A DNA stretch of 36,502 bases from positions 1 through 36,502 of IMG/VR virus record IMGVR_UViG_3300049432_000207; one strand, given 5' to 3'. The position numbers and the translations under genes were made by a program. Under the pieces are notes generated by a model, which saw only the letters and a program-made list of their open reading frames with translations, made no database searches and had not been told where the DNA came from. This document shows, in pieces, positions 2,439 to 36,502 of this stretch (the stretch's first letter is position 1; every line of letters starts with the position of its first letter). This stretch comes from a virus.

Positions 2439-2753
2439 ATGGCAAAAGGCGGACTAAGACCAAACGCTGGCCGGAAGAAGGCCAACCATACGATACAGGC
2501 CGAAGCCTTGAGAGCTTACTGGGTTGCTGAATACATCAAACGCAAGTCAGAGATAGTCAAGGCGACTTTAGATAAGGCCGTAACCGGTGATGTGCCGGCA
2601 ATCAGGGAAGCTAATGAACGTGCCATGGGCAAAGTGAAGGAGACGACCGAACTCGTAGGAAAGGACGGCAAAGATTTGTTCCCGGTGCCGATTTTAACCA
2701 ATATGAATGTTTCAACTCACGACCGCGACAAGGAGAATAAGCCAGCTCAATAA
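2439..2753 (+). CDS. Terminase small subunit (probable)
   Basis: The N-terminus MAKGGLRPNAGRKK is the typical opening of many phage small terminase subunits (GGxRPGAGRK), and the rest is helical and charged. Small subunits recognise the packaging site and load the large subunit. At 104 residues it is short but within range. The ATG at 2439 is preferred to 2424 because of that motif. No Shine-Dalgarno site is present. It overlaps the large-subunit gene by 47 bases in another frame. Confidence 0.8.
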   Translation: MAKGGLRPNAGRKKANHTIQAEALRAYWVAEYIKRKSEIVKATLDKAVTGDVPAIREANERAMGKVKETTELVGKDGKDLFPVPILTNMNVSTHDRDKENKPAQ

Positions 2754-3942
2754 ACGCATCCGCGCCATCCAGGGCGGAACATCCGCCAGCAAGACCGTTT
2801 CAATCCTTCTGCTTCTCATTCACGCCGCGCAGAGCGACACCTCACCCACCCTCACCAGCATCGTCTCGGAATCCATCCCACATCTCAAGCGCGGAGCAAA
2901 ACGCGACTTCGAGAACATCATGAAGGAGCATCGGTACTGGAAGGATGCCTGCTGGAATGCCACGGATTCGATTTACGTCTTTGAGACCGGCAGCCAGATT
3001 GAATTCTTCTCAACTGACAACGGCGACAAGCTCCGAGGCGCCAGGCGCGACAGATTATTCATAAACGAAGCGAACAATGTCCCATTTGAAGCATTCCAAC
3101 AACTTGAAGTCAGAACCAGAGAATACATATTCCTCGACTGGAACCCCACAACTGAGTTCTGGTTTTATACGGATGTTCTTGGCAAACGCGATGATGTCGA
3201 CCACATCATCATTACTTACCGCGATAATGAAGCCCTCGACCCCGCTATCATCCGGTCGCTCGAGCAGCGCAAAGGCAACAGGCAGTGGTGGCAGGTCTAC
3301 GGTGAAGGGCTCCTAGGTGAAGTCGAAACTCGCATCTATCGGGGCTGGAATGTCATTGATGAGATCCCTCATGAAGCCAGGCTGGAACGATATGGTATGG
3401 ATTTCGGTTATAGCAACGACCCGGCCGCTATCGTAGCTATTTACTATTACAACGGCGGTTACATCTGGGATGAAATTGCATATCAGAAGGGGCTACTTAA
3501 CAATCAGCTGGCCGCCATCATCCAGAATCAGCCTGTCAGTATAGTTATTGCCGACAGCGCCGAACCCAAGTCGATAGATGAAATGCGCTCCTACGGCATT
3601 ACCGTGCTGCCCGCCAACAAAGGCAAAGGGTCTGTGCTCCAGGGCATCCAGTGGGTCCAGCAACAGAGAATCTCCATCACCAAGCGCTCGATAAACCTCC
3701 TGAAAGAGTACCGCAACTACGTCTGGATTACCGATAAGGACGGCCGGATCATCAACGAACCAATCGACATTTACAACCACGGCATGGATGCAGGTCGCTA
3801 TGGAATGGAAAGCCTCAAACCCAAGGAAGACCCCGCATCACTTTACAAACAACCCGCCTGGGAGTCGGAGAACGCATTTTTCGATGCAGCTCCGCCCGCG
3901 GATACATCGTTCAAGATAACCTCTAAATTTAATAATAAATGA
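2707..3942 (+). CDS. Terminase large subunit
   Basis: The ATP-driven DNA packaging motor and nuclease. Walker A is GGTSASKT (residues 23-30); Walker B with the catalytic glutamate is LFINEA (117-122, E121); the coupling motif is LDWNPT (143-148). The C-terminal RNase H-like nuclease shows the three expected acidic positions: D232 in GMDFG, D283 in ADSAEP and D361 in HGMDAG. The 411-residue length is typical. It overlaps the small-subunit gene upstream and shares ATGA with the portal gene downstream, so the three are translationally coupled. Confidence 0.96.
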   Translation: MFQLTTATRRISQLNKRIRAIQGGTSASKTVSILLLLIHAAQSDTSPTLTSIVSESIPHLKRGAKRDFENIMKEHRYWKDACWNATDSIYVFETGSQIEFFSTDNGDKLRGARRDRLFINEANNVPFEAFQQLEVRTREYIFLDWNPTTEFWFYTDVLGKRDDVDHIIITYRDNEALDPAIIRSLEQRKGNRQWWQVYGEGLLGEVETRIYRGWNVIDEIPHEARLERYGMDFGYSNDPAAIVAIYYYNGGYIWDEIAYQKGLLNNQLAAIIQNQPVSIVIADSAEPKSIDEMRSYGITVLPANKGKGSVLQGIQWVQQQRISITKRSINLLKEYRNYVWITDKDGRIINEPIDIYNHGMDAGRYGMESLKPKEDPASLYKQPAWESENAFFDAAPPADTSFKITSKFNNK

Positions 3943-6933: not shown

Positions 6934-7806
6934 ATGTCTGACGAACCAACAATCACCCAGGTAGAGGGTGTTAAAACAACTCTGCCAGCAGAACAGATTG
7001 CGGACCTGGTGCCCAAAGCACCGGAGCCAACCCCTGAACCTGCCACGCCTGAAGAAGGCAAACAACCGGAAGCCAAGCCGGAGGAACCAACACCGGAGGT
7101 TAAACCACAGGACCAACCCGAGGTGAAGGAACCTGAAGCCCCACGCAAAGCCAAGCCCATTGCTAAACTGTTAGAGAAAGCCCACCAGGCCGAGACCGAA
7201 GCCACCACCGCGAAAGCGAAGGTCGCCGAGCTCGAGGCCAAGTTAGCCCAAGTCGCCGCCGCGCCCGCCTCACCGCAAGCCACGGCTGACATCAAAGCGT
7301 TAGCCGAGAAACACGGGGTCACACCCGAAATCCTGGCTGACATTGTGTCCCTGGCTCGCCAAGGATTTGAAGCCCCGAAGCTTCCCAAAGAAGTGTTCGA
7401 GGTTATCGAAGCCCGAAAGCAGGAACAGGAACAACAGGCCGAAGTTCAGGCCTTTGATACCCGACTCAAACGATTGGAAACCGTCTTCAAAGACGAACCA
7501 ATCGGTAAGAATCGAGACAAGTTACTGGAACTCGCTTACTCAACAGAAAAAGCACCAGACGGAGAGCCCTACTACCAAAAAGAGTTATCTGAACTCTACT
7601 TCGCATACATCAAGCCAGAGATTGAAGCCGGCAAGAAGTCCGCTGAACCATCGAGAGGTGGCACAGCTGCCTCAACCCCAGTTCTCGACTTCGCAGAAAT
7701 CGCAAACGACCCGGTCGCTATTGAACAGATGGACGACGCGACGTTTACGAAATTCAGCACATGGATGCAGGAGCACCAGAAAGGTTCACCACTGCGACGG
7801 GCTTAA
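6934..7806 (+). CDS. Scaffold (or scaffold-like) protein
   Basis: A 290-residue protein directly before the major capsid gene, where scaffolds are normally found. Residues 25-75 are a Pro/Glu-rich disordered tract (PEPTPEPATPEEGKQPE). Then comes a coiled coil (about 77-110, LLEKAHQAETEATTAKAKVA) and a helical C-terminal domain ending in basic SPLRRA, which fits capsid binding. Scaffolds guide procapsid assembly and then leave. ATTAAC lies shortly upstream of the ATG and there is no Shine-Dalgarno site. Confidence 0.8.
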   Translation: MSDEPTITQVEGVKTTLPAEQIADLVPKAPEPTPEPATPEEGKQPEAKPEEPTPEVKPQDQPEVKEPEAPRKAKPIAKLLEKAHQAETEATTAKAKVAELEAKLAQVAAAPASPQATADIKALAEKHGVTPEILADIVSLARQGFEAPKLPKEVFEVIEARKQEQEQQAEVQAFDTRLKRLETVFKDEPIGKNRDKLLELAYSTEKAPDGEPYYQKELSELYFAYIKPEIEAGKKSAEPSRGGTAASTPVLDFAEIANDPVAIEQMDDATFTKFSTWMQEHQKGSPLRRA

Positions 7807-7852
7807 ACGGTAGCGGTGACGTAACACCGCCCAACCAATTAACCCCACTCCC

Positions 7853-9055
7853 ATAGCAAACTCATTATCCGCGTCATTCCCAACAATCTGGGCGCGTGAG
7901 ATGCAGAAAAAGTTCTGGATAAAGAACGTTTTTCGCCCTCAAGCGAACTTCAGACTTGAGTCTGACCTCAAAGTCGGCGACACCGTCAAGCGAGTTTATC
8001 GCTCGGCCACTGTCCCGCAGGATTACACCAGGGGTACTGATGTCACCTTCCAAGATTTGACCGATACGGCCGAATCGTTGGTAGTCGACAAAACCCCGGT
8101 AATCCCGTTTTACATCGATGATCTCGACGAAATTCAATCGAATTTCAACGAACGTGCCCGCTACACCGAAGACACCAGCAACCAGATGAGCAACATCATC
8201 AACGGCTGGTACACCGCAGAAGTCGTCAATGCAACATCTGTAATCGATGCTGCTGATTTTGGTGGCACTGCTGCCCTTGGCGCAACCATCACCACTGCCA
8301 ACATCCAAAAGATGTTCGCTCTCGCTCAAAAGAAAGTATCCCGCCTCAACACTTGGGGCGAAGGGAACTTCTTCGCCAACCTTACCCCAGACGTTTACCA
8401 AGTCTTGCTGGAATATCTAGCGGGCAAAGAATCCGTCTTGGGTGACAAGACCGGTGAAAACGGCCACGTCGGCCGCTACATGGGTTTTGATCTGTATGTC
8501 TCCAACGGTGGCTACTGGACTGGCAAACTCGCCATCGCCACTCAGCCAACCGATGCTGACACTGTGGTCATCAACGGCGTGACCTTCACCTTCAAAACGA
8601 CCCTCGGCGCAACTGCCGGTAACGTTTTGATTGGTGCTTCTGCCGCTACTGCCAACACCAACCTCGCAGCCTTAGTTAACGCTCCAGGCACCACAACGGC
8701 CCAGGGTGTCGCTCTGACTGCTGCCAACCAAGCCAAGCTCTACGGCTGTGTCGCTACTGCCGCCGCTGCTGCAACGACCTTCACTTATCGTGGAGTCGGC
8801 GCACCAGTTGTCGCAGAAACGCTGACCGCCGCGGCTGACGTTTGGGACACAGGACTGAACATCTCTCATTTGATGTTCGGTGCCAAAGGTGCCGTCGATA
8901 TGGTCATCCAGAAGAACCCAACAGTCCAAATCGAAAAAGCCGAAGCACGATTGGGCTACAAGGTAATTCCGTACACATTGTTCGGCAAGAAAACTTTCGC
9001 CGATGGAGCAGTCAAGCTCGTGGACGTCAAAGTCAACACTGTTTCTTACACCTAA
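7853..9055 (+). CDS. Major capsid protein, apparent ATA start
   Basis: The N-terminus reads ANSLSASFPTIWAREMQKKF when begun at ATA 7853, which matches the usual opening of P22-like coat proteins (ANxL...P.IWAxE). An ATG at 7901 exists but would delete 16 residues of this conserved arm. From 7853 the protein has 400 residues. The HK97-like fold is suggested by VGDTVKRVYR, TPVIPFYIDD and the closing KLVDVKVNTVSY. Residues about 222-332 look like an inserted Ala/Thr-rich beta domain (DTVVINGVTFTFKTTLGA) of a kind common in phage structural proteins. The ATA lies nine bases after TTAAC and four after TAACCCCAC. Confidence 0.92.
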   Translation: MANSLSASFPTIWAREMQKKFWIKNVFRPQANFRLESDLKVGDTVKRVYRSATVPQDYTRGTDVTFQDLTDTAESLVVDKTPVIPFYIDDLDEIQSNFNERARYTEDTSNQMSNIINGWYTAEVVNATSVIDAADFGGTAALGATITTANIQKMFALAQKKVSRLNTWGEGNFFANLTPDVYQVLLEYLAGKESVLGDKTGENGHVGRYMGFDLYVSNGGYWTGKLAIATQPTDADTVVINGVTFTFKTTLGATAGNVLIGASAATANTNLAALVNAPGTTTAQGVALTAANQAKLYGCVATAAAAATTFTYRGVGAPVVAETLTAAADVWDTGLNISHLMFGAKGAVDMVIQKNPTVQIEKAEARLGYKVIPYTLFGKKTFADGAVKLVDVKVNTVSYT

Positions 9056-10239: not shown

Positions 10240-10615
10240 AGCGATAGCCGCTAGACGGCTAATGAATACCGCGGATGCCGTGACCTGGGCCACCGGTCAG
10301 GGAACTGGTGTAGGAGCGTTTGCCGCCACAGACACCACCCTCGGCACCGAAGTCAAAGCTGACGGCACTGGCGCCTCTGGTGTGCACTGTATTCCAACTG
10401 CAAGCAACACGATAAGCAACGTCACCACCACCGTGACTAACGACACCATGCAAGTCGTCGGCACGGTTGCTGAAACAGCCACGATTGCCGTCACGGAATC
10501 GGGCCTGTTCAACGCGGACACCAACGGCTCACTGCTCTGTCGACAAACGTTCTCCGCCGTCAACGTCGTCAACGGCGATTCGATTCAGTTCACTTGGAAA
10601 ATTAAAGCAGCATAG
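10217..10615 (+). CDS. Virion/tail protein, 132 aa
   Basis: The pattern FAATDTTLGTE, NDTMQVVGTVAETATIAVTE and GDSIQFTWKIKAA matches a recurrent family of small phage tail-associated beta proteins (my recollection, not searched). A short basic N-terminal helix precedes the beta domain. It ends in a single TAG, and the same frame stays open into the next gene; see the following entry. Confidence 0.75.
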   Translation: MGITNVGKAIAARRLMNTADAVTWATGQGTGVGAFAATDTTLGTEVKADGTGASGVHCIPTASNTISNVTTTVTNDTMQVVGTVAETATIAVTESGLFNADTNGSLLCRQTFSAVNVVNGDSIQFTWKIKAA

Positions 10616-10627
10616 GAGAATAAATAT

Positions 10628-11206
10628 ATATCAAGACAATTTTGGACAGAGAACCTGGCCTGGGCTACAGCCGCTGGAACAGCAATCGCCAACTCCACAA
10701 CCGAAACCATTCTTTTCCCGAACGTCACTATTCCTGCCAACTACATGCAGGACGGACGTGTCCTTTTGCTGAAAGCAACTGGCGCGTACGGAACAACGGC
10801 CACTCCAACTCTTACTTTTACCATTCGATGGGGAGGTGTCTCTGGCACCGTCATCGCCAAGTCCGGCGCTTCAGTCACCACGTCTGGTACTGGTGGAGGA
10901 GCTTCCATGACCGCTCTCTGGACTTTCTGGGCTCTAATCCAGGTTCGCTCTAACGGCTCGGCAGGCACGCTGTTTTCGAACGGGGAACTCAACCTCTACA
11001 CTTCGACCGTAGGTACGGCCGGCACCGTCACTAACTATGGAATGCCAGTCGTTCTCGCTTCGGGCGCGACCGGAGGCACTACGCCTGTCGCAGTCACCGC
11101 TGACTTAACTGCTGACACTGCCCTCTCCCTTACCGCCACTTGGAGTGCTGCAAACGCCGCAAACTCAATTCGCGGGGATCAATACACGATAATCGCCCTC
11201 AACTAA
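10628..11206 (+). CDS. Beta-sandwich virion protein, apparent ATA start
   Basis: The first in-frame ATG is at 10745, but 39 codons upstream are plainly coding (FWTENLAWATAAGTAIANST, then VTIPANYMQDGRVL), with TIPANYM the usual interior of this fold. No ATG, GTG or TTG lies between 10616 and 10745. ATA at 10628 sits nine bases after GGAG (10615..10618), an ideal start position. From there the protein has 192 residues. The preceding gene lies in the same frame, separated by one TAG at 10613..10615, so stop read-through giving a fusion is an alternative. Confidence 0.8.
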   Translation: MSRQFWTENLAWATAAGTAIANSTTETILFPNVTIPANYMQDGRVLLLKATGAYGTTATPTLTFTIRWGGVSGTVIAKSGASVTTSGTGGGASMTALWTFWALIQVRSNGSAGTLFSNGELNLYTSTVGTAGTVTNYGMPVVLASGATGGTTPVAVTADLTADTALSLTATWSAANAANSIRGDQYTIIALN

Positions 11207-15184: not shown

Positions 15185-17042
15185 ATATATTCAGACTTTT
15201 AAAGTAACTGACTTTCCCTGGGGCTTAATCGACACTGTCGAGGATCAAGCCATTCCCAATGGCGCAGCTTCACGTTCCAACAACTGGCTGACCGAAGGCG
15301 ACCACATCGAGCTAAGGCGTGGCCTCGACCTGATGGGAACTGAGAACCTCGGCACCGGCGGCATCCTCGGCCAGCACACGACATATAAGGCCAACGGCAC
15401 AGAGCTCGCCTACCGCAAGAACGGCCGCAAGCTCGAGTATTTCAATGAAACGACATCTGACTGGGCGGAAGTCGGCACCAACATCTTCCCCGCTGCTGCT
15501 ACCACCGACGAAGCCTCGTTTGCCAACTACGCTTCCCTAGCCGGCTCGCAGATGTTCGTCTGCAGCCCCAATGCTGGTCCGTTCAAGATAATGACCGCCA
15601 GTCCCGGCAGTTACACTGACCTGACCGATGCAGCCAAGAACTTCCAAGGCCGAATCAAAATCAAGCAAAACCGGATGTTCCTCTGGGGCCGAACGAAAGA
15701 TAAGACCGGCGTCTACGGCTCATATATCGACACTGCTACATACACCACCGTCACCGGGGAAGCCACGGCTTCGCTGTCTGGCACACTCGCTTTCAAAGCC
15801 GCAGGGACTGTCCGCACCTGTTTTGCCGTCGCCATCACCATCACCGCCTCGGGCGAGGTTTACACTGATGATTATAACGGCGTCCTCACCGGCTCGCTGG
15901 GGGGCACCGGCACCATCAACTACACGACCGGCGCCTATACCGTTTCCAATGCCGGCGTCGGCACCGCGGCCTACCAGTGGGAGAACTCCAACAACAACGG
16001 CATCACAGACTTTACAAAATCTGCCCCTCGAGTCGCAGCCCAAGGCTTTGTCTTCCGTCAGGACGACGGCGGCGGGGATCTGCAAGGCGTGGAATCCTAC
16101 GCTGATACTGAATTCTGTCTGCACAACCTCAAGACCTGGGCGCTGACCCTAACCTCGACCGACACCTCGGCCACCAATCTCATATACCGCGATAAAGTTG
16201 GCATCCCAAATCATCGAGCGGCCGTCGCCACCGGCGAAGGCATTTACTACATCGATGACTCCGACCAGGCTGACCCGCAGTTCCGGATCCTGACGCTGTC
16301 CCAAACCTCGGGGTTGGTCGTTCCTCAATCTGTCTCCAAGCGAAAGGCCAAGAATGGTGCCACCTGGGGCGTCAACCTTTCCGATTACCGGTTCGACACC
16401 GCAGTCAGCTACGAATGGGGCAAATACATCCTCTTTGCCTGCCGGCACAAGGACGCGACTGCCAACAACACCCTGATTACTTTCAATAAGGTGACCCAGG
16501 CGCTCGACAAATCTGACATCTCAGCCAACTGCTTCTCCACCTACAACGGCACTCTGCTCGTCGGCGACAGCATTTCCAACAACACTTACGTCGCCTTCTC
16601 TGGCTTCGATGATGACGACTCGCTGATTCCGAATTACTGGGAAGGAAACCTGTCCACGCTGGACGTAGAGGAGCTGAAGAAGTGCAAGAAGCTCGTGGTG
16701 CAAGGGCTAATCGCCTCTGAACAGACGCTGAATGTCTACGCTGCTGTGGATAACGGCGGCTATACGCTCATCGACACAATAACTGGAGATGGAACCTACG
16801 TCGACCGCGGCCAGGCCATCAACGTCGGCTCCCTCACTGTCGGCAGCCATGAACTCGGCGGCGGTGGCGATGGGATATCCGCTTACAACTACGAACACGC
16901 TTTACGCTTGACCCTCGACAAGTTTTACCAAATCAAACTGAAATTCGAAGCCGTCGGTATCGGCTACGTTTCAATAAACAAATACCGATTCTTCGACATC
17001 CGCCTCAAGGGCGCGAAGGTATTAGCTAAATATCGTAATTAA
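15129..17042 (+). CDS. Tail nozzle / tail tube protein
   Basis: A 637-residue, nearly all-beta protein after the adaptor gene. Its N-terminus (TDFPWGLIDTVEDQAIPNGA, then NNWLTEGDHIELRRGL) and repeating blades such as GIYYIDDSD and YILFACRHKD fit the beta-propeller nozzle proteins of podoviruses (P22 gp10/T7 gp12-like). The ATG at 15129 overlaps the previous gene by 56 bases. An in-frame ATT at 15189, just after the previous stop, would give MQTFKVTDFPWGL and is a possible alternative start given the non-AUG starts elsewhere here. Confidence 0.75.
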   Translation: MAPRSYLKHKIQRIQLISKYIQTFKVTDFPWGLIDTVEDQAIPNGAASRSNNWLTEGDHIELRRGLDLMGTENLGTGGILGQHTTYKANGTELAYRKNGRKLEYFNETTSDWAEVGTNIFPAAATTDEASFANYASLAGSQMFVCSPNAGPFKIMTASPGSYTDLTDAAKNFQGRIKIKQNRMFLWGRTKDKTGVYGSYIDTATYTTVTGEATASLSGTLAFKAAGTVRTCFAVAITITASGEVYTDDYNGVLTGSLGGTGTINYTTGAYTVSNAGVGTAAYQWENSNNNGITDFTKSAPRVAAQGFVFRQDDGGGDLQGVESYADTEFCLHNLKTWALTLTSTDTSATNLIYRDKVGIPNHRAAVATGEGIYYIDDSDQADPQFRILTLSQTSGLVVPQSVSKRKAKNGATWGVNLSDYRFDTAVSYEWGKYILFACRHKDATANNTLITFNKVTQALDKSDISANCFSTYNGTLLVGDSISNNTYVAFSGFDDDDSLIPNYWEGNLSTLDVEELKKCKKLVVQGLIASEQTLNVYAAVDNGGYTLIDTITGDGTYVDRGQAINVGSLTVGSHELGGGGDGISAYNYEHALRLTLDKFYQIKLKFEAVGIGYVSINKYRFFDIRLKGAKVLAKYRN

Positions 17043-22780: not shown

Positions 22781-23098
22781 ATGCCCCGCAAGACAGATTC
22801 CCCATCAATTAAGGAAGCCCTCACCAATCGCGACATTAGCGATATTCGGGCTGATATTTCCAGCCTGGCCACAACCGTGGCAAAAGGTTTCGAAGGTATT
22901 CACCTGCGTCAGGACACCACAAATGGCAAGGTCTTGAAAGCCGGGTCTGACATTATCGAAAACAAGTCACAAGTGGAACTCCAAATGGCGGCACTTAAGG
23001 CCCAGTTCGAATACAACCGCTTTATCTGGTACGTCACTACGATTTGCGTCTCGATAATCATCGCCCTCGCCAGCTACATTCTTCTTAACCAGCATTAA
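22781..23098 (+). CDS. XhlA-like membrane protein, possible holin
   Basis: A 105-residue protein with a helical, coiled-coil-prone N-terminal part (RADISSLATTVAKGFEGIHL) and one C-terminal membrane helix (WYVTTICVSIIIALASYILL, about residues 83-102). This plan matches haemolysin XhlA-type phage proteins that act with holins and lysins. It opens the lysis region. TTAAC lies 11 bases before the ATG in a C-rich leader. Confidence 0.65.
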   Translation: MPRKTDSPSIKEALTNRDISDIRADISSLATTVAKGFEGIHLRQDTTNGKVLKAGSDIIENKSQVELQMAALKAQFEYNRFIWYVTTICVSIIIALASYILLNQH

Positions 23099-23108
23099 CC
23101 CCACCCCT

Positions 23109-23855
23109 ACGAAGGTCTACCGCGTCCTAGTCCTACCCGACATTCATCTTCCATTCGAAGATATTCGGACGATGAAAGCCGTAGAAACATACATGGGAGA
23201 ACATCCCTGGGATGAGGTTGTGTATTTAGGGGATTTAATGGACTGGGATTTTATTTCCAAGCATAATATAGATAATCCCAGGTCGAAGGAGAAACGCCGT
23301 ATACACGACGAATACCTCTACGCCTCTGAATTCCTCGACCGTCATCAGCGACTCGCTCCTAAAGCCAAATTTACGCTTATAGAGGGCAACCACGACTACC
23401 GGATAGAAGCATATATCGACAAGCACCCCGAAGAAGAAGGCACCCTGGAAGTACAGACCGGCCTTCAGCTCATCAAACGAAAGATTAAATGGGTCAGGTA
23501 CTGGTCAAAGGGTGAACTTCATAAAATCGGCCACGCCATCTTTATTCACGGCCGCTATACCACCCAATACCACGCCAGAAAACACGTCGATGCGTACGGC
23601 ACAAATGTTTTCTACGGCCACACCCACGACGTTCAGTACATCTCCAAAGAACTCCTGGGCGACAACAAGACCATCGCCGGTCAGTCGCTCGGCTGTCTCT
23701 GCCGCTACGACCAATCGTACATGCAGGGCAAGCCCAACAAGTGGCAGCAGGCCTTCGGAGTATTCGAGTTCTTTCCCGACGGATTTTTTCAATACAACGT
23801 AATCAGGATATTTAAGCATCGGTTTCGCGCCGATGGGAAAACCTATGAAGGATAG
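23109..23855 (+). CDS. Calcineurin-like metallophosphoesterase, apparent ACG start
   Basis: The metal-binding motifs are D11-x-H13 (LVLPDIHLP), GD (D42, YLGDLMD), GNHD (N94, H95), H147 (FIHG) and GHTH (H171, H173). The first, essential DxH motif lies upstream of the first ATG (23172), so translation must begin earlier, and no ATG, GTG or TTG is available. ACG at 23109 gives KVYRVLVLPDIHLP at the normal family start and 248 residues. It lies nine bases after TTAAC and four after TAACCCCAC. Possible roles are nucleotide or nucleic-acid hydrolysis; its place in the lysis region is unusual. Confidence 0.9.
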   Translation, partial: TKVYRVLVLPDIHLPFEDIRTMKAVETYMGEHPWDEVVYLGDLMDWDFISKHNIDNPRSKEKRRIHDEYLYASEFLDRHQRLAPKAKFTLIEGNHDYRIEAYIDKHPEEEGTLEVQTGLQLIKRKIKWVRYWSKGELHKIGHAIFIHGRYTTQYHARKHVDAYGTNVFYGHTHDVQYISKELLGDNKTIAGQSLGCLCRYDQSYMQGKPNKWQQAFGVFEFFPDGFFQYNVIRIFKHRFRADGKTYEG

Positions 23856-25401: not shown

Positions 25402-25923
25402 ATTAAACGATTCGCCTATTGGCTGCCTCTGGGAATCCTCATCGGTCTTTTGCTGGGATTCCTGTTCTTCTACAGCATTGACGTAGCGGCCAACACTCCG
25501 AATAGTAATCAACCCCTCATTGACCCCGAGCACAATGCTTGGATAGAGCTATCAAACAATGTCGCATATAAACCGAACCCGCCCTCTGAATATATTCCGC
25601 CGCCACCCGTTCGACCTCGTACGGGTAACTACTGTTCTTGTGTCAATTACGTCAAAGCGCTTACTGGATTCAGCCAGAGCATCGGGTACGCCAGGAACTG
25701 GCCCATCAATTCAAGCACGCCGTTTGTTGGCGCGGTTGTCGTGACATCCGAAGGTCCGTATGGACATGTCGCTGTTATCACAGCAATTACAGAAGATGGC
25801 TTCCTCATCCTAGACGAAGCGAACTACTCTCCCTGCCGACACACCACCGGACGTCACCTCTCGGTTGATAGCCCTCTAATCCTCGGTTACTGGGTCAAAA
25901 TAATTAACCCCACACCACAATGA
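25402..25923 (+). CDS. Membrane-anchored CHAP-domain endolysin, start uncertain
   Basis: The C-terminal CHAP amidase/endopeptidase domain has C80 (CSCVNYVKALTG), H122 (YGHVAVI) and N141 (LDEANY), numbered from ATT 25402. A membrane or signal-anchor helix (YWLPLGILIGLLLGFLFFY) precedes it. A TTG at 25450 lies inside that helix and is unlikely as the start; the frame is open upstream to 25354 with no ATG, GTG or TTG. ATT at 25402 would give MKRFAYWLPLG, an ordinary signal-anchor start. TTAACCCCAC also lies upstream at 25350. The enzyme likely cleaves peptidoglycan for lysis. Confidence 0.8.
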   Translation: MKRFAYWLPLGILIGLLLGFLFFYSIDVAANTPNSNQPLIDPEHNAWIELSNNVAYKPNPPSEYIPPPPVRPRTGNYCSCVNYVKALTGFSQSIGYARNWPINSSTPFVGAVVVTSEGPYGHVAVITAITEDGFLILDEANYSPCRHTTGRHLSVDSPLILGYWVKIINPTPQ

Positions 25924-27550: not shown

Positions 27551-27853
27551 GTGATAGTCAAAATCATTCCAAACGAGAAAGGGAATCCCCCAGGCAAGCT
27601 TGCCGAGGCGGAACTCCATTTCAATGCCGGCCCTCTTGAGGGTCTGAAGCTGATTGGATTCGCCGTCTGGGAACGCAAGACCGGCAACGGCAGAAACGTC
27701 ACGTTCCCTGCACGCCAGTACAGCGTCAACGGTGAACGCAGAAGCTTCGCGCTGCTGCGGCCCCTGGCTGACGTCGACGCCCAGAACCGAGTCCGCGACC
27801 TGGTCCTCCAGGCTTATGCCGAATACGAAGCAGAAGCCGCCAAAGCGTCCTGA
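27551..27853 (+). CDS. Hypothetical alpha/beta protein, 100 aa, GTG start
   Basis: Beta strands (ELHFNAGPLEGLKLIGFAVW) with ERKTGNGRNVTFPARQYSVN recall SpoVG-like small folds that sit around similar lengths; the resemblance is loose. AGGAG lies before the GTG. A C-terminal helix (RDLVLQAYAEYEAEAAKA) closes it. It is part of the SD-led accessory operon. Function not known. Confidence 0.65.
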   Translation: MIVKIIPNEKGNPPGKLAEAELHFNAGPLEGLKLIGFAVWERKTGNGRNVTFPARQYSVNGERRSFALLRPLADVDAQNRVRDLVLQAYAEYEAEAAKAS

Positions 27854-35815: not shown

Positions 35816-36502
35816 TCACGCCAACTTCGCCAGAGGCGACAGACGAGCGTGCTCCTGCTGAAAGTCCTCCACCCCCAGCCCTCTGATATACAGCTGCGTC
35901 GTGCTCACCGAGGAATGACCCAGGATGCGCGACAGCGTATAGATGGACCCACCATTCTTCATGAAGTGACAGGCGAACGTATGTCGCGTCAGGTGCGGGT
36001 GCACTCGCTTGGTGATTCCGAGTTTCAGGCAAAACTTGATGAGGTCGCGGTAGATATTTCGATACATTAACTTCGTCCCCTCGCGGGACGCGAACACATA
36101 TTTATGAGTAAGCCCCTGTTTGTCCTTGAATTGCCCATAACGGAACAGGATCTTGCGAAGCTCGGTGCTGAAGGGTACGCGCCGTTCTTTGTTGCCTTTC
36201 CCGTTAACGGTGAGGAGAAGGTTGTCCATGTCGAGATTAGCCACCGTCAGCTCTATAACCTCATTTATGCGACAGCCGGTATCAAGAAGAGTGTGCATCA
36301 GCGCATATACCCGCCATTCCGAGCTGGTGCGCGGCTTAAACGCAAGAAGTGATTTGATGTCCTGGTCGGAGAAGACCGTCACGGCTTTGATAGGCGCCTT
36401 GAGCTGTTTCAAAACAATCTGCTCGTGACCGTGCTCTTCTTTCAGCCAAGCTGAGAACGAGTTCATCGCCCGGATGTAGATGTTGATGCCGCACGGTGAC
36501 AT
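35816..36502 (-). CDS. Tyrosine recombinase (integrase), 5-prime end cut
   Basis: The catalytic set is present: R78 in TGCRINEVIEL, a Lys in GKGNKERR, H170-x-x-R173 in HPHLTRHTF, H196 in ILGHSS and the nucleophile Y205 in TTQLYIR. Residues 1-40 look like the end of the N-terminal core-binding domain (INIYIRAMNSFSAWL), so about 60-80 residues lie beyond the window edge and the apparent ATG there is probably internal. It would integrate and excise the phage genome. No attachment site was found next to it. Confidence 0.9.
   Translation of the reverse strand: MSPCGINIYIRAMNSFSAWLKEEHGHEQIVLKQLKAPIKAVTVFSDQDIKSLLAFKPRTSSEWRVYALMHTLLDTGCRINEVIELTVANLDMDNLLLTVNGKGNKERRVPFSTELRKILFRYGQFKDKQGLTHKYVFASREGTKLMYRNIYRDLIKFCLKLGITKRVHPHLTRHTFACHFMKNGGSIYTLSRILGHSSVSTTQLYIRGLGVEDFQQEHARLSPLAKLA

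Follow-up and report, generated by a model that had tools for sequence, protein, structure and literature searches.

The major capsid protein of the virus studied here appears to start at a near-cognate ATA codon at position 7853, a conclusion supported by the comparison with related phages, which begin the same protein in the homologous column, and by the reading frame itself, which offers no canonical start. The window that we analyzed, called W below, is the whole 36,502-base IMG/VR virus contig, and its relevant features are collected in Table 1.

Table 1. Features discussed in the text, with their positions in the window, strand and supporting evidence.
Feature	Position or sequence	Strand	Evidence
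Upstream gene, presumed scaffold	6934..7806	+	scaffold role by position only
Hairpin GCGGTG-ACGTAA-CACCGC, between upstream and capsid genes	7813..7830	+	RNA fold
TTAAC motif	7839..7843	+	positional enrichment before starts in W, A, B, D
Major capsid protein, 400 aa, HK97 fold	7853..9055	+	phrog_267 match, AlphaFold, Foldseek
ATA start codon of the major capsid protein	7853..7855	+	aligned with relatives' ATG/GTG/TTG and with the ATA of B
Peptide spanning the capsid N-terminus under the ATA start	ANSLSASFPTIWAR	+	predicted from sequence
First in-frame ATG (Met17), default annotated start	7901..7903	+	rejected as start
Structural-type protein (SRQFW family), ATA start after AGGAG SD	10628..11206	+	relatives' first column
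Structural-region protein, homologous start ATT 15189	15189..17042	+	ungapped N-terminal match, motif scan
Metallophosphoesterase, ACG start	23109..23855	+	phrog_221, E 2e-40
CHAP-domain lysin, probable ATT start	25402..25923	+	PF05257; frame reading

The start position of the capsid gene

The frame of the capsid gene is preceded by a TGA (7817-7819), is open from 7820 and ends at 9055. No ATG, GTG or TTG occurs in it between 7820 and 7900. A direct reading of the frame bears out the first-pass annotation, which had placed the ATA 16 codons upstream of the first ATG (7901), the distance being exactly that. The codons following the ATA are GCA AAC TCA TTA TCC GCG TCA TTC CCA ACA ATC TGG GCG CGT GAG, and re-reading them gives the same N-terminal sequence, ANSLSASFPTIWARE, as had been proposed. 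The identification of the product as the major capsid protein also holds, since a search against family profiles returned phrog_267 (major head protein) with an E value of 7e-25. The AlphaFold model, built from 21 aligned relatives, has a mean pLDDT of 82, with residues 1-7 poorly predicted (pLDDT below 50), and Foldseek matched it to the capsid of cyanophage A4 (E 4e-13) as well as to those of T7 and P22.

The gene located upstream gave no family match in profile searches. Its stop codon (7804-7806) lies ahead of the opening of the capsid frame at 7820; a single frameshift therefore cannot supply the capsid N-terminus, and a fusion of the two genes by this route is impossible. The hairpin found between them is perfect, with six pairs, and the RNA fold of 7800-7910 gave a z of -2.96 versus shuffles.

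Relatives of the capsid were collected in two scans of 5 and 37 loci, a few of which are duplicates of one virus. Four of these relatives are named here A (L002/L015), B (L003/L016, contig IMGVR_UViG_3300025311_000013), C (L018) and D (L017). The first codon falls in the same column as ATA 7853 in 29 of the 37 related loci, and it is ATG in 26 of them and GTG, TTG and ATA in one each. A starts at ATG, C at GTG, D at TTG and B at ATA; the capsid of L005/L042 has a GTG start and a slightly longer N-terminus. The alignment of coat proteins from related contigs, which had been suggested as a check, thus gives a fixed start position with a varying codon. An ATG at this place in a relative, which the first-pass annotation took as evidence against an ATA start, is indeed present in A, but D has TTG and B has ATA, and the ATA reading is left standing. 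In a tree of the capsid proteins, W and A (ATG) were weakly joined, and B (ATA) and D (TTG) strongly joined; this leaves three histories for the ATA in this small clade, namely an ancestral codon with two losses, two separate gains, or transfer by recombination.

The comparison with B is the most informative, its capsid protein being 80% identical to that of W. Nine of the codons 2-16 are identical between the two, six differ by a synonymous change and none by a non-synonymous one, which indicates that this stretch is translated and makes a base error very unlikely. As W is a metagenome contig, one could wonder whether an ATG was turned into ATA by sequencing or assembly. However, B, whose contig is distinct and comes from a different metagenome, has the same ATA and a protein of that limited identity, which makes a sequencing error very unlikely, and near-cognate starts are found in other genes of W too. 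We consequently give very little credit to an error. Hardly more probable or less is the use of Met17 only, with the 16 upstream codons left untranslated. ATG 7901 is the first canonical start and the one picked by gene callers, but the absence of any replacement in the upstream codons speaks against it, as does the conservation of the residues upstream of Met17 across the family. Neither a TTAA nor a Shine-Dalgarno (SD) sequence was found before 7901. In the capsid model, moreover, the N-terminal helix (residues 8-24) spans Met17, so that a start at this codon would be predicted to cut the helix.

A changed code, in which a host or phage tRNA reads AUA as methionine, would make AUA an efficient start. 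On the other hand, 27 of 51 internal ATA codons align with isoleucine versus 3 with methionine, and searches of W, A, B, C and D returned no tRNA genes, which makes recoding unlikely; ATT and ACG starts appear to be used as well. Altogether, we consider this explanation extremely improbable.

Sequence context of the start and probable host

No SD sequence was found before ATA 7853. The codon is preceded by a TTAAC contained within ATTAACCCCAC (7838-7848), the first T lying 14 nt before the ATA and the spacer being free of G. All four of W, A, B and D carry TTAAC ahead of their capsid start, and W and B the longer ATTAACCCCAC. Among k-mers lying no more than 30 nt from an ATG start, ATTAAC and AATTAA show strong over-representation in W, A and B; in B, ATTAAC precedes 9 genes versus 0.17 expected. 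When TTAAC occurs within 60 nt of an ATG start, it is placed 13-17 nt before it in 23 of 33 occurrences, while a TTAA falls in this window by chance at 1.7% of sites in the W genome. The commonest distance from the first T, 14 nt, is that of ATA 7853, of ACG 23109 and of the ATA of B, whose spacers are CCCACTCCC, CCCACCCCT and CCCACCCAT, respectively. A search for ATTAACCCCAC across all viral contigs gave 60 matches, mostly without a long ORF after them, from which the motif can be taken as clade-specific. We reject the reading of TTAAC as a promoter: the 27 aligned cases have no conserved upstream promoter element, the -35 element included, and the distance to the start codon is tight. Their spacers to the start codon are poor in G.

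The element itself raises the question of whether translation could begin within it, at the in-frame ATT 7838, five codons upstream of the ATA, to give MNPTPIANSL... In both phages with an ATA, W and B, an ATT is indeed present 15 nt upstream, which counts against the AUA start. ATT AAC CCC ACY is kept in frame directly before the ATA with no stop between, whereas the six codons located 6 to 11 before the ATA do not align, and an equivalent arrangement exists ahead of ACG 23109. However, contig A has an in-frame TAA directly before its ATG, and the relatives begin at (M)ANSL. Many genes that start at ATG also have an ATTAAC upstream that is not in their frame, which argues for an upstream signal and not a codon. 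We thus hold initiation at ATT 7838, itself still near-cognate, to be improbable, and ATA 7853 remains the preferred start.

SD sequences were counted at 3 of 28 gene starts in W and 2 of 20 in B, but the picture is mixed: strong ones precede some right-arm genes, namely those at 27551, 27998 and 28818 in W, as would not be expected if the host ignored SD altogether. The W genome displays two initiation contexts, SD in right-arm genes and TTAAC in many structural genes. The ORF listed from 27368 probably starts in fact at GTG 27551, where B has ATG.

We compared these figures with the SD-rich phages T7 and phi11 and with the Bacteroidota phages Fpv5 and B40-8. A TTAA at 13-17 nt is present in 24 of 57 genes of Flavobacterium phage Fpv5 and 13 of 46 of Bacteroides phage B40-8, and an SD in 0 of 57 and 4 of 46, respectively. 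In T7 and phi11, TTAA is found in 5 of 57 and 4 of 49 genes and SD in 55 of 57 and 28 of 49. The gene starts of W, A, B and D resemble those of Fpv5 and B40-8, not those of T7 or phi11. The large terminase of W (2707-3942) is closest to those of Flavobacterium phages (45%) and shares only some 26% identity with its counterpart in B, which suggests that the terminase module of W was replaced. Judging from these sequences, a Bacteroidota-type host is likely; a search for capsid relatives in the GTDB genome collection returned none, and no prophage was found. A tyrosine integrase gene (35816-36502) runs up to the right-hand contig end and suggests a temperate or integrated origin.

Other near-cognate starts in the genome

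The first-pass annotation had counted the capsid start as one of four clear near-cognate starts in this genome. Of the others, ATA 10628 and ACG 23109 have good support, ATT 25402 is plausible rather than clear, and homology adds ATT 15189 to the list.

The SRQFW protein differs from the capsid in that its ATA follows an SD. Among 36 relatives its first column holds ATG in 29, GTG in one and ATT in two, the four others being fused into longer proteins; the families counted for near-cognate starts were chosen because W has one, and such counts give no unbiased rate. The two ATT starts, in L077 and L082 (around 2001), both follow purine-rich sequences, and in L077 an in-frame stop lies directly before the ATT. 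The gene upstream of the SRQFW ORF shares its frame and terminates at TAG 10613-10615; its readthrough into a fusion is possible, as a lesser alternative to a start at ATA 10628.

ATT 15189 aligns without gap to the ATG starts of the B, A and C proteins, and a TTAA lies 15 nt upstream of it. The canonical ATG 15129, 60 nt upstream, would add 20 residues from inside the previous gene and, from this alignment, is probably not the start.

No ATG, GTG or TTG exists in the metallophosphoesterase frame from 23058 up to the first ATG at 23172, and the D-x-H residues of the enzyme (PDIH) are encoded upstream of that ATG. ACG 23109 has a TTAAC 14 nt upstream, within a copy of ATTAACCCCAC at 23094-23104. 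No relatives of this protein were found among viral contigs. ATT 25402 is followed by KRFAYWLPLGILIGLL, a signal-peptide-like N-terminus, and preceded by CTAAC 14 nt upstream, which makes it a plausible start of the lysin. This case is weaker because TTG 25450 exists as an alternative and no relatives of the lysin were found among viral contigs.

Proposed initiation and comparison with known systems

We propose that synthesis of the capsid protein very likely begins with fMet at AUA 7853 in an SD-independent context. The host ribosome, probably of the Bacteroidota type that uses SD little, would be positioned by AUUAAC about 14 nt upstream together with the G-poor spacer, and the initiator fMet-tRNA would then start at AUA, a C-A mismatch at the third codon position being tolerated. 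The product would be (M)ANSLSASFPTIWARE..., its methionine probably removed before the alanine. AUA probably initiates less than AUG would, which could possibly balance the coat protein against the upstream, putatively scaffolding, protein. From its role we infer that the coat protein is abundant, and a virion shell protein would be called for in bulk. The lack of SD at 7853 therefore counts against the proposal, as does the low output of AUA starts in S. aureus (see below), which was obtained with an extended SD present. A broader hypothesis, which we regard as possible rather than probable, is that in this clade, and perhaps in its host, AUUAAC mainly sets the start, and that AUA, AUU and ACG could be ordinary starts even for abundant structural proteins; in W, as many as five of some 37 genes would be concerned.

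A parallel can be drawn with Escherichia coli infC and pcnB, which start at AUU. IF3 selects against all three of the rare bacterial starts AUU, AUC and AUA, and for AUA this discrimination, which the first-pass annotation had invoked, is established for bacteria generally (PMC4611024). AUA is the start codon of infC and ccpN in S. aureus, and AUU that of cvfC1, all three with extended SD pairing; reporters with the AUA start of ccpN, or with that of citZ, which is strain-specific, reached about 10-30% of what AUG gave (PMC13009471). The W capsid shares with infC, ccpN, cvfC1 and pcnB an AUA or AUU start, which in those genes limits initiation and for some is conserved between species. Unlike the three S. 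aureus genes, it has TTAAC in place of an SD, and it is a coat protein, whereas the known cases are regulators or low-level proteins.

A second parallel comes from Bacteroidota, which naturally lack SD and prefer adenine at about positions -14 to -11, as in Flavobacterium johnsoniae (PMC6847099). W resembles this bacterium, Fpv5 and B40-8 in its TTAA or A-rich element, some 15 nt upstream of start codons, and to some extent in its low number of SDs. It differs from them by an element of the form TTAAC(C), a 53% GC genome and some right-arm SDs, and AUA, AUU or ACG starts are not reported for these SD-less systems in the papers found. The sequence family and fold of the W capsid are common to phrog_267 major head proteins and HK97-fold podovirus capsids, from which it differs by its ATA codon in place of ATG, GTG or TTG. 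The literature searched, with incomplete coverage, held no report of a phage major capsid protein with an AUA start. AUA starts are already known in bacteria, as in infC and ccpN (PMC13009471); what sets the present case apart is that the apparent near-cognate start, without an SD, belongs to a coat gene, is found again in a second phage and is accompanied by four further candidates in its genome.

If this proposal is true, near-cognate starts would extend beyond low-level regulators such as infC, and a coat protein needed in hundreds of copies per virion could start at AUA without SD. Such phages would be a natural system in which to test how SD-less initiation escapes discrimination by IF3. 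Gene callers restricted to ATG, GTG and TTG would also truncate or wrongly extend phage proteins: in W the coat protein would be left without its N-terminus and the phosphoesterase without its DxH residues, and the structural-region protein at 15189-17042 would gain 20 residues.
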